Assembly: GCA_016874005.1 (NCBI GenBank)
Contig: VGVQ01000004.1
Span: 1 to 64,000, forward strand
Origin: Gemmatimonadota bacterium
GTDB lineage: Bacteria; Gemmatimonadota; Gemmatimonadetes; Gemmatimonadales; GWC2-71-9
Direction of reading: 5' to 3'
DNA: 64,000 bases
Under the pieces are notes generated by a model, which was not told the DNA's origin, did not search any database, and saw nothing but the letters and a program-made list of their open reading frames with translations. Shown piece by piece: positions 1-38,576 of this stretch (within the stretch, counting starts at the first letter, position 1; each line of letters begins with the position of its first letter). Made by a program: the position numbers and the translations under genes.

Positions 1-66
1 TCGGAGAATGGTGGCCTTCTCCTCAGCGGTGAATGGGCGGCGAGCACGGCTCGTGGATCGACTCAT
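1..66 (-). CDS. Transposase N-terminus (IS3/IS66-type OrfA-like), partial
   Basis: On the minus strand an ATG at 66 opens a frame reading MSRSTSRARRPFTAEEKATI and continuing off the left edge of the window. The basic start followed by R-R-x-F-[ST]-x-E-E-K-x-x-I-L-R is the usual beginning of the small helix-turn-helix OrfA of IS3/IS911-like and related transposases. A GGAGGAG Shine-Dalgarno sits just upstream. Only 22 residues are visible, so the exact IS family cannot be fixed. Confidence 0.6.
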   Translation of the reverse strand, partial: MSRSTSRARRPFTAEEKATILR

Positions 67-10757: not shown

Positions 10758-11786
10758 ATGTCGGACTCGATCGAGCGTGGTATCCGGCTGTGCTTGGCGG
10801 TCGCATCGACTTTGGCCGCGACGGCGTGCGGCAAGGCCCCCGATCAGGCCCAGGCACCGCCCGCCGGGCCGGCCTGGACCGACCCGGCCCCCCACACGGA
10901 AGGCTTCGGCGCCACCGCGACCGGCCCGCTCCACTACCTCGACTGGGGCGGCACCGGACCCAACCTGATCCTGATCCACGGCTTGGGCGACAACCCCCAC
11001 GCCTTCGACGATCTGGTGCCGGCCCTCGGCGGCAAGTTCCGGGTGGTCGCCTACGCTCGCCGGGGACACGGACGGTCCACCAAACAGGGTCCCTACGACA
11101 CCGCCACCCTGGTCGCCGACCTGACCACCGTGATGGACAGCCTCAAGATCGAGTCAGCCCATCTGGCCGGGTGGTCCATGGGCGGCAACGAGATCACCGC
11201 GATGGCCGGCACCCATCCCGGCCGGGTCGGGAAGATCGTCTACCTCGACGCCGGATACGATTGGGCCGACCCAACGTTCGCCGCGGCCTTCAACGAGACG
11301 CCCGCCGATATCAACCCGCCGGAGGCCGCGCGGGCCAGCCTCGACGCGTTCCGCGATTGGCAGCGGACCGTCTGGTTCCCGGGAGTCGCCGACGGTTCTC
11401 GGCTGGAGGCCTACATCCGGGGCTTGGTCGAGGTCCAGCCCGATGGACGGGCCCTGCCCGCGATCCACGACACGGTGATGGCGAAGCTCTATGAAGCACT
11501 GGTGACCAGCCCCCGCGACTATCCCAAGGTGAAGGCGCCGGCCCTGTCGATCTACGCCACGACGTTCTTCGATCTCGAACGCGGTGACTCCGCCCAACGG
11601 GCGAAGATGGCCGCCTGGGAAGAGAAGCACGTCGCGACGTTCCGGGCGAGGTCTAAAGCGCGGATCGTGAAGGAACTGGCCGGGGTCGACACGATATCGG
11701 TTCCGGGAACCCACATGGACTTCTTGGTGAACGGCCGTGACCAAGTGGCCGCCGCCATGGCGGCGTTCCTGTCGCGACCGCGGTAG
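10758..11786 (+). CDS. Alpha/beta hydrolase, predicted lipoprotein
   Basis: 342 residues. The ATG at 10758 has GGAGGATGAA directly upstream and opens a lipoprotein signal ending in the lipobox LAATAC (Cys about 23). The alpha/beta-hydrolase landmarks are the oxyanion loop HGLGDN (about 79), the nucleophile elbow GWSMGG (about 143) and the catalytic His in GTHMDFL near the C-terminus. The substrate is unknown; it resembles epoxide-hydrolase or esterase-type members. The frame extends further 5', but those residues overlap the previous gene and give no signal peptide. Confidence 0.75.
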   Translation: MSDSIERGIRLCLAVASTLAATACGKAPDQAQAPPAGPAWTDPAPHTEGFGATATGPLHYLDWGGTGPNLILIHGLGDNPHAFDDLVPALGGKFRVVAYARRGHGRSTKQGPYDTATLVADLTTVMDSLKIESAHLAGWSMGGNEITAMAGTHPGRVGKIVYLDAGYDWADPTFAAAFNETPADINPPEAARASLDAFRDWQRTVWFPGVADGSRLEAYIRGLVEVQPDGRALPAIHDTVMAKLYEALVTSPRDYPKVKAPALSIYATTFFDLERGDSAQRAKMAAWEEKHVATFRARSKARIVKELAGVDTISVPGTHMDFLVNGRDQVAAAMAAFLSRPR

Positions 11787-28563: not shown

Positions 28564-28633
28564 ACCGGGCCTCCTCGAGTTCAGGCGGCGGCCGGAGTGG
28601 CGGTGTCGCGGAGGTGCTGCGTCACGCGCCGCG

Positions 28634-28706
28634 CTCCCTCCGCCGGTGTCAACCGGATCAGGTTCCAAGGGACTTTCTCAACCTCGCTCGCGGCGAGGTA
28701 CCCCTG
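28634..28706 (-). promoter_or_regulatory. TPP riboswitch (THI element)
   Basis: Read on the minus strand, the conserved blocks appear in order. AGGGGTACC is the 5' arm and GGTTGAGA is the J3-2 region. AGTCCCTTGGAACCTGATC contains the highly conserved CCUGAUC pyrimidine-sensing core. CGGTTGACACCGGCGGAGGGA is the pyrophosphate-binding arm and closing GGGA. It ends about 70 bases before the receptor ATG at 28563, so control of translation or early termination is likely. On the plus strand, only 34 bases separate it from the start of the divergent hydrolase gene. Confidence 0.9.
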
Positions 28707-28739
28707 GCGGCAACCGGCAATGTAGGCGAACTTCGACCG

Positions 28740-35720: not shown

Positions 35721-36731
35721 TCATCTCCTGACGAACTTGCGAAGCATCTTGGGGCCGACTTCCGCCGAGTAGAGATCGCCGTGGCGATCGACCGCGACGC
35801 CCTCCGCGCCGCTCGTCGCCGATCGGTCCTGATCCGGTTCGGGGTCGGGAATGAAGCCGGTCACCCAGCCGGTCTTGGCGCTGCCGATGTAGATCCCCCG
35901 CTTCCACCCGGGGTTACGGCCGGCGTTGGACTCCGAGTCGGTGGCGTAGAGGACGTCGCTCTGGTCGATGAACAAGCCGCTGGGCCGGCCAAACTGGGTC
36001 CAGGTGGCGAGGTGCTTGCCCTCCTGGTCGAAGATCTGGATCCGACTGTTGGCGCGGTCGGCCACGAACAGCCTCCCCTGGGAGTCCATCGCCAGGGCGT
36101 GGGGATCGCGGAACTCGCCGTTGGCGCTGCCGGTGGTGCCCCATTCCGTGAGATACGACCCGTCGGCCGCGAGCTTGACGATCCGGTTGTTGCCATCGGC
36201 GTCGTGGCCGTCGGCGACGAAGATGGTCCCGTTAGGCGCCACCAGCACCGCCGAGGGCTTCCGGAAGGTGTCCCGCCCCCGTCCGGCGACGCCTTTCTTG
36301 CCGAGGGTCATCAGGACCTGACCGGTGGGGCTGAACTTGACGATGATGTGGCCGATCCCCGCGGGCTGCTGGCCAAAGCCCAAAGCGTCGGTCACCCAGA
36401 TGTTGCCCTGACCATCGACGAAGAGCCCATGCGGCCAGGCGATCGTGCCGGCGCCGAAACTCCGGATCAGCTTGCCGGTTCGATCGAACGCCAGCACCGG
36501 GTCGAGGCTCGACCCGACGCAGGTATTGGCGCCGCAGCGCTCCCCGACCCAGATGGTGCCGTCGGGCGCGGGCCAGACGCCGCTGGTGGCCCCCCAGGTT
36601 CGGCCGGCGGGCAGCTGACCCCAGATGCCCTCGACGGGGCGGTACGGATTGGGAGCGGTCATTTGCGCGGCTGCCGTCGCGGCCGGGACCAGCCAGGCCA
36701 CGAGCGCCACGCGGTGCGAACGGAAACGCAT
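35721..36731 (-). CDS. NHL-repeat beta-propeller protein, exported
   Basis: 336 residues with signal peptide (MRFRSHRVALVAWLVPAATAAA). Repeats of the six-bladed NHL type are visible: WPHGLFVDGQGNIWVTDA, KPSAVLVAPNGTIFVADG, DPHALAMDSQGRLFVADRAN and RPSGLFIDQSDVLYATDSE. This group resembles peptidyl-alpha-hydroxyglycine amidating lyase-like propellers, but the lyase function is not shown. The stop TGA is two bases from the start of the PQQ gene, implying coupling. Its Shine-Dalgarno (GGAGG) lies inside a perfect inverted repeat, described separately. Confidence 0.75.
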   Translation of the reverse strand: MRFRSHRVALVAWLVPAATAAAQMTAPNPYRPVEGIWGQLPAGRTWGATSGVWPAPDGTIWVGERCGANTCVGSSLDPVLAFDRTGKLIRSFGAGTIAWPHGLFVDGQGNIWVTDALGFGQQPAGIGHIIVKFSPTGQVLMTLGKKGVAGRGRDTFRKPSAVLVAPNGTIFVADGHDADGNNRIVKLAADGSYLTEWGTTGSANGEFRDPHALAMDSQGRLFVADRANSRIQIFDQEGKHLATWTQFGRPSGLFIDQSDVLYATDSESNAGRNPGWKRGIYIGSAKTGWVTGFIPDPEPDQDRSATSGAEGVAVDRHGDLYSAEVGPKMLRKFVRR

Positions 36732-36779
36732 CGGTCTCGCCTCCAGAGTAGCGGGAAGCTACCGCGGGAGGCGAGACCG
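36732..36779 (-). promoter_or_regulatory. Perfect hairpin covering the Shine-Dalgarno of the NHL-PQQ operon
   Basis: Read on the minus strand, CGGTCTCGCCTCC (36779-36767) pairs over all 13 bases with GGAGGCGAGACCG (36744-36732). An inner GTAGC/GCTAC stem has loop TTCCC. The 3' arm contains GGAGG, and its last base is directly followed by the ATG at 36731. The structure would hide the ribosome-binding site. It could equally end transcription from the upstream hydrolase gene (stop at 36794), though no T-tract follows. Confidence 0.7.
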
Positions 36780-36793
36780 GCCAAGCCGCCGGA

Positions 36794-38407
36794 TCAGGAG
36801 GTGCCGGGGCGGAACTGCCTGACCAGCCAATCGCCGACCATCCGAAGCACCCCGGGGTCCACCTTCATGCTCGGCAAACTGGTGTAGCCGCCAGGGAACC
36901 CGCTCGGGTCACGCACGAACAGGTGGTTCAAGTCGGGGAAGACGTGTGAGGTGACGTCGCGGTTGCCGGCCGCCTTGAAGGCGGCGACCAGCTCCCGGAC
37001 CTGATCCGGGGTCACCTGCTGGTCGGTGGCGCCGTTCAAGACCAGGACCGGCGTCGTCACCCGGCGGGCCGTCGCGGAGGGATCGTGCTCGAGGAAGAAC
37101 TTCATCCACGGGACACTCCGCAGCGAGTCGATCTGACTCGGCACCCTCGCCAGCGCCGAGTCCTTTTGAGCGGCCGAGAAGGCGGTGTTCCCTTTGATCA
37201 AGTTGCGGAGTTGGAAGTTCAGGATCCGCTCGCCGGTTCGCGAGGTCCCGGCCAATAACACGATCCCCTTCAAGCTCGGCTCCTCGAGTGCCACCAGGGG
37301 CGCGATGATCCCCCCCTCGCTATGGCCGACCAGGGCCAGCCGGCTACCGTCGATCTCGGGCCGAGTTCGGAGGTACCCCAGCCCAGCTCGGATGTCCTGG
37401 GCGAAGTCGGCACTGGTGGCGGTGGCGGGGTTGCCGCCCGACTGGCCCACCCCGCGATCGTCCATTCGGAGCACCGCGATTCCCCGGCGACCGAGGGAAT
37501 CGGCCAACTCGCGGAAGGGCCGATAGCCCTTGAACATCGCGATGGACTCGTCGCGGTCCTGCCCGCCGGACCCGGTGATCGTGATCACGGCCGGAACTCG
37601 GCGCGAGGCGCTGGCGAACTTCGGGATCGTGATGGTTCCCGCCAGGGTGTGCCCCATGGGAGTCGACACCGTTACCTCAGTGGCCGTGTAGGGCGCGTCG
37701 GCCGGGGCGGAGTAGTCCGGCTTCTCCACCGTCATCACCGCCGAGCTGGCCGATTCGCTCCGAATGACCGTGAGATTCTGGCTCGCGAGGAACCCGCCCC
37801 GGAGCCGGCCGTCGCCGTCGATCCCAAGACGGATGGTGCCGCCGGGCGCTTCGATGTCGACCGAGTCGGCGCCCACTGGAGTGACCTTGGCTACGAAGGT
37901 CTGGCCGCCGGCCAGCGCGAAGACCGGTATCGAAGATGTCCCGGTGCGTTTCGCCCATGCCACGATCGGTTCCCACATCGCAAACGAGGGATTCAGATGG
38001 ACGAAGGCGCCTCGTTTCGACGGCAGCCGCTGGACCCCCGGCTGTCCGGACGGTGCCGCGATCTCGACGACCGCGGTGCTGTCGTCGAAGGTGAGGGTGG
38101 CGTCTTGTTTGGGCGCCGCGTCGGCCGGGTCGGAGGCCGCGAAGTACTTGTTGCTCATCCGGCGCACTCGGCCATCGGCGTCGAACTCGATGGCGTACCG
38201 GAACCGGGCCGAGGCCGGCCGAATCAACAACTCGCCCTCGAGTCGGCTGGCGGTCCTGGTAAACCGCTCGACCGACACGGTATCGTTCCCTTGTTTCAGG
38301 ACGATGGTGCTCTGGGCCTCGGCCACCGCGATGCCCGCCGCGGCGACCAACCCGGCGCTGAGGACCAACGACTCGGGAACCCACCACCACCTCGATTCAC
38401 GACTCAT
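36794..38407 (-). CDS. Exported alpha/beta hydrolase with N-terminal beta domain
   Basis: 537 residues; ATG at 38407 gives a signal peptide ([25 protein letters not shown]). Residues about 30-235 form a beta-rich region of unknown role. Residues about 250-535 are an alpha/beta hydrolase with [11 protein letters not shown] (oxyanion loop), [13 protein letters not shown], nucleophile elbow [13 protein letters not shown] (about 360), acid in [11 protein letters not shown] and His in FPDLNHLFV. This layout matches the family of secreted serine hydrolases next to DUF3887-type domains. The start overlaps the 59-residue regulator gene by 11 bases, so it belongs to the SPFH operon. Confidence 0.75.
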
Positions 38408-38576
38408 CGGCACGCTGCTCACTCCCTTCGGGAAGGCGTCGAGCGGCAACCGCCGCTCGACGCAGCAAGAACTCGATCTGGGCGTTCAGACTGCGCAGCT
38501 CGCTCGCAGCCCAGCGCTGCAAGGCGTCGTGCAGCGCTGGGTCGATCCGAATCAAGAGCGACTTGCGAGGCGCCAC
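38397..38576 (-). CDS. Ribbon-helix-helix DNA-binding protein, Arc type (59 residues)
   Basis: A short gene with a GTG at 38576 and a TGA at 38397-38399. The protein begins [20 protein letters not shown] and continues [20 protein letters not shown]. The strand K-S-L-L-I-R-I-D, then helix A ([15 protein letters not shown]), then helix B ([14 protein letters not shown]) is the MetJ/Arc fold. It starts seven bases after the SPFH stop and overlaps the hydrolase start. A dimeric repressor that could bind the palindromic operator at the operon promoter is the simplest role. A TA antitoxin is less likely because no small toxin is adjacent. Confidence 0.75.

Follow-up and report, generated by a model that had tools for sequence, protein, structure and literature searches.

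A hairpin over the Shine-Dalgarno site of an NHL-repeat gene in a Gemmatimonadota genome and the predicted promoter that it encloses

The hairpin and its genes

In the window, i.e. the whole stretch of 64,000 nucleotides analysed here, the ribosome-binding site of a gene for an NHL-repeat protein lies within one arm of a perfect hairpin, which raises the question of the RNA in which this hairpin can form: the message of the gene itself, which would then be repressed until unfolded, as the initial annotation proposed, or RNA that reads in from upstream. The order of the genes on the minus strand is hydrolase, a 62-nt gap, NHL and PQQ dehydrogenase, and the features of the locus, in the direction of transcription, are:

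36794..38449, minus strand: upstream alpha/beta hydrolase (S33 type), start possibly at 38368; putative source of read-through RNA
36779..36784, minus strand: predicted -35 element, TTGGCC
36732..36779, minus strand: hairpin, with a 13-bp perfect outer stem, a nested stem of 5-6 bp and a 5-nt inner loop
36767..36779, minus strand: 5' arm, CGGTCTCGCCTCC, in the spacer between -35 and -10; contains the anti-Shine-Dalgarno CCTCC
36756..36761, minus strand: predicted -10 element, TAGCTT, between the hairpin arms, after a 17-nt spacer
36748..36762, minus strand: nested stem-loop, GTAGC-TTCCC-GCTAC
36749, minus strand: predicted transcription start (A), placed 7 nt past the -10; 18-nt leader, ACTCTGGAGGCGAGACCG
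36732..36744, minus strand: 3' arm, GGAGGCGAGACCG, its last base being -1 of the ATG
36740..36744, minus strand: Shine-Dalgarno GGAGG, 8 nt from the ATG
35721..36731, minus strand: NHL-repeat protein, 336 aa, with an N-terminal signal-like segment
33748..35718, minus strand: PQQ-type dehydrogenase beta-propeller gene, 2 nt past the NHL stop

The outer arms (36767-36779 and 36732-36744) match exactly over 13 of 13 bp with 22 nt between them, and the nested stem joins GTAGC (36758-36762) to GCTAC (36748-36752), with six pairs when one G-U is counted. The exact pairing, the nested stem and the presence of GGAGG in the second arm, all noticed at first reading, are thus confirmed on the minus strand, where the 3' arm runs up to -1 and directly abuts the ATG (36731-36729). 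The start is very probably assigned correctly to this ATG: no other Met comes before the signal-peptide-like segment, and the reading frame, closed by a TAG at -30, offers no further ATG, GTG or TTG upstream. The isolated 48-mer has a folding energy of -35.7 kcal/mol, compared with -16.2 for shuffles (z = -6.9). Its core, CTCGCCTCC-N-GGAGGCGAG, is single-copy in the genome, which rules out a repeat family or a mobile palindrome. Further upstream in the window, two perfect 12-bp hairpins without clear T tails are found between the stop of a Band 7 gene and the coding start of the hydrolase (38436-38541).

Among 992 gene starts, drawn from 1.26 Mb of the genome, the NHL start is the only one with a perfect stem of at least 12 bp over the Shine-Dalgarno zone; the starts were called by a simple method based on codon usage and may be individually wrong elsewhere. 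Shuffled gene starts, 20 per gene, gave a mean of 0.05 genes with at least 12 bp and none with at least 13 bp. Since inverted repeats of 13 bp are in themselves no rarity (464 kb contain two perfect ones of 14 bp and five of 13 bp, mostly short-loop and terminator-like), the exceptional feature is the placement over the Shine-Dalgarno site. With a 60-nt leader the cost of freeing the segment from GGAGG to the ATG is 24.9 kcal/mol, the first in rank among 995 starts (genome mean 8.8, standard deviation 3.5). A 7-bp case on C27, similar only at first sight, was attributed to chance.

The closest NHL orthologs found are those of bacterium HR33 (75% identity) and of an uncultured Gemmatimonadales genome (74%), both from the same family as the genome of the window, which by these orthologs groups with the Gemmatimonadales; no close ortholog was found in same-genus genomes. 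The hairpin was not found upstream of the NHL orthologs, at about 60 loci with identity down to about 50% and in the family set. As no ortholog examined carries the hairpin, the relatives provide no covariation, which the initial annotation had proposed as a check. Among the fetched NHL flanks, the hydrolase stands beside the NHL gene in the window's own genome alone, and the hydrolase orthologs (57% identity in the same genus) have no similar arrangement behind them.

The predicted enclosed promoter and access to the start site

A promoter match, TTGGCC-17-TAGCTT (36784-36756, minus strand), overlaps the hairpin: the 5' arm begins with the last base of the -35 element and otherwise lies within the spacer, and the -10 element falls between the arms. 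A transcript beginning at the predicted start, A36749, would keep the entire 3' arm, GGAGG included, and none of the 5' arm. The match was evaluated against the genome's own promoters. Upstream of 340 genes, TTGNNN-16..18-TANNNT occurs in 52 copies, where shuffles give 6.25 and the coding rate would give 1.1; among the variable letters of the -10, TA[G/T]CTT is preferred, and the spacer is most often 17. The NHL promoter ranks 15th of 340 with a matrix trained without it, and scores at least as high were reached in 2 of 10,000 shuffled versions of the DNA upstream of the gene (2e-4) and in no coding stretch; the 18-nt leader is within the common range of predicted leaders in the genome. A generic promoter scan, which requires agreement with 9 of 12 E. 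coli letters, for that reason missed the NHL promoter. In 2.06 Mb of the genome, sampled as stretches that make up about half of it, the promoter form of the lineage can be written as TTGnC(G/C)-17-TA(G/T)CTT, and several predicted starts are leaderless or near-leaderless; this consensus is usable for the lineage, for which a literature search returned no mapped promoters. Among relatives, family member L209 has a promoter of the same type (score 14.3) ahead of its NHL gene, while the four closest orthologs score poorly; use of an own promoter by NHL orthologs is thus not generally shown.

The two possible leaders differ markedly in computed accessibility. In models of the read-through RNA, with both arms, the pairing of GGAGG is 0.999 and 26-27.5 kcal/mol are required to open the site; with the 18-nt leader the opening cost is 9.0 kcal/mol (rank 351 of 995), and after addition of 100 nt of coding sequence it is 13.9 with the short leader versus 27.5. 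The short message is still structured, no more than is usual in this GC-rich genome. The loss of structure that the own start would bring, 15.8 kcal/mol, is the largest among 104 promoter instances in 2.06 Mb, the next being 10.8. The latter value belongs to a paaA-like gene (L125, 17474-18445, minus strand), which has an imperfect structure upstream; transcription from its own predicted start would leave the translation start open. The idea of a wider class of genes with promoters in hairpins was considered and dropped, the sampled half of the genome holding this weaker, imperfect instance and no second clear case. Upstream of a gene whose product has a carboxypeptidase regulatory-like domain (L232, 17947-18777, minus strand), an 11-bp perfect hairpin carries a -10 element in its loop.

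The proposal that the hairpin masks the ribosome-binding site and strongly represses the operon thus stands in its first part, as the Shine-Dalgarno site is buried in any RNA with both arms; repression of the operon until unfolding is not supported, as a consensus promoter lies inside the hairpin. Transcription starting within the hairpin, which the initial annotation named as fatal to its own reading, is exactly what the promoter predicts. Masking is real in the models, but it is probably not masking of the gene's own mRNA; if this is right, a hairpin seen in DNA to mask a Shine-Dalgarno site need not exist in the real mRNA of the gene.

Proposed read-through silencing and its rivals

We give about an even chance to the reading that the 48-nt element encloses the promoter of the NHL gene in a hairpin that silences read-through RNA. 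Transcription of NHL-PQQ from this promoter would start at about A36749, past the 5' arm, and the free GGAGG of the message would allow ordinary translation. Since this message would lack the 5' arm, the masked form would occur only in read-through RNA of the hydrolase gene: polymerase running in from that gene would transcribe both arms, locking the Shine-Dalgarno site in a hairpin of -36 kcal/mol, and NHL protein would not be made from such RNA. In this way NHL-PQQ would depend for its output on its own promoter and be shielded from the neighbour gene. The geometry is supportive, the hydrolase gene lying on the same strand 62 nt upstream of the NHL gene with no canonical terminator between them. 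Computation shows the hairpin, its rarity, the promoter match and the change in opening cost; the start site, the read-through RNA and selection for insulation are inferred. Against an insulator speak the predicted nature of the start, the occurrence in one genome and the lack of any ortholog with the hairpin, so that conservation cannot show selection; burial of the Shine-Dalgarno site could also be a by-product of a terminator or operator role. A broader version, in which Gemmatimonadota would furnish newly acquired cassettes with promoter-in-hairpin insulators, the NHL-PQQ pair having arrived behind a resident gene and gained a palindrome with its 5' arm in the promoter spacer, which would make the cassette deaf to the neighbour's transcription, is highly doubtful.

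The hairpin might instead be the terminator of the hydrolase gene, its 3' half merely overlapping the NHL leader, an explanation that is unlikely although several observations agree with it. The stem starts 14 nt past the hydrolase stop, strong GC-rich hairpins 3-77 nt after stops are common in the genome, often with sparse T tails like TCGTTTAG, and some of them abut the next gene. Measured as an intrinsic terminator, the element offers a GC-rich hairpin and a tail, ATGCGTTTCC, with 4 T in 10; however, positions 3-5 after the stem are without T and the terminator scan was negative. Moreover, the outer stem encloses 22 nt and an internal loop, versus loops of 3-9 in the listed terminator hairpins (3-9 being also the limit of the search), and a terminator has no need for a Shine-Dalgarno match or an enclosed -10. 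Distinctly unlikely is a DNA operator, where a repressor would bind the palindrome centred beside the -10 and block the NHL promoter, the RNA hairpin being incidental. Perfect inverted repeats of at least 10 bp embracing the -10 were observed at 3 promoters, NHL included, against 0.15 expected in the 2.06-Mb sample; another of the three lies ahead of a PadR regulator gene and is likely an autoregulatory operator, and the nested GTAGC-N5-GCTAC offers half-sites 10 bp apart. A dedicated repressor would be expected to leave repeated sites or an adjacent regulator gene, but the genome contains the palindrome just once, GTAGC-N5-GCTAC recurs at one other place alone and no regulator gene was found among the scanned neighbours; in addition, a single dimer would not usually bind half-sites of 13 bp at a distance of 35 bp. 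The PadR palindrome, GTTCTAGGGG-N14-CCCCTAGAAC (L166:10921-10954, regulator gene at 10975-11310), is likewise single-copy and embraces the -10 of its gene.

The original switch model, in which both arms are part of the main mRNA and a ligand, a protein, heat or upstream translation opens the hairpin, is now very unlikely. It draws on the almost complete pairing of the Shine-Dalgarno site in long RNAs, but it is opposed by the consensus promoter within the hairpin, by a 62-nt gap without an aptamer-sized domain, by the lack of conservation and by a folding energy, -35.7 kcal/mol, far above the stability of known RNA thermometers. No Rfam riboswitch or thermometer reached the gathering score at the hairpin (best local match 19.1 bits, cutoff 50); the sole Rfam match in the window is a TPP riboswitch at 28617-28715, minus strand, with 62.6 bits, above the gathering score. 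Coupling to translation of the hydrolase, also suggested at the outset, has a poor geometry and is an unlikely opener of the hairpin: a terminating ribosome covers about 12 nt past the stop codon and would not open a stem that begins 14 nt away. Finally, a chance palindrome or lineage-specific debris without function would agree with the occurrence in one genome alone and with the several perfect 13-bp repeats per 464 kb, but it is very improbable indeed, as the length of the NHL stem over the Shine-Dalgarno site was reached in none of about 19,800 shuffled gene starts and the nested stem comes on top of the outer one.

Comparison with known systems

If the read-through-silencing reading is right, the NHL locus would be an example, from a bacterial chromosome, of insulation against read-through that acts on translation. 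A related strategy protects IS10-type transposase genes, where transcripts that enter from outside fold up and conceal the start site; unlike IS10, the NHL locus shows no transposase or terminal repeats. In Bacillus subtilis, a large hairpin has been proposed to block translation of sigG from spoIIG read-through RNA and cannot form in the PsigG RNA (PMC5942855). The NHL arrangement would be similar, with a hairpin that blocks read-through RNA from upstream genes and is absent from the own-promoter RNA, but the sigG hairpin has 20+ bp and that of NHL 13+5 bp, the NHL promoter is of the common type, the genes are unrelated and the NHL case is known from sequence alone; sigG alone has a second, small hairpin at the ribosome-binding site in its own mRNA (PMC5942855). 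In phage T4, a stable hairpin buries the Shine-Dalgarno site of I-TevI and of several late genes, including e and soc, in long early RNAs, as is the case for Aeh1 mobE, and the late promoter of I-TevI is positioned so that late RNAs cannot form the hairpin (PMC2988022). The NHL hairpin likewise buries its site in long RNAs; in T4, however, late promoters provide phage timing (PMC2988022), whereas NHL has a common-type bacterial promoter without known timing. As in read-through-silencing hairpins at ribosome-binding sites, the NHL locus combines a computed stable hairpin that pairs the Shine-Dalgarno site with a predicted own promoter whose RNA lacks the 5' arm. On paper, the arrangement parallels sigG and I-TevI, and not a riboswitch or a thermometer.
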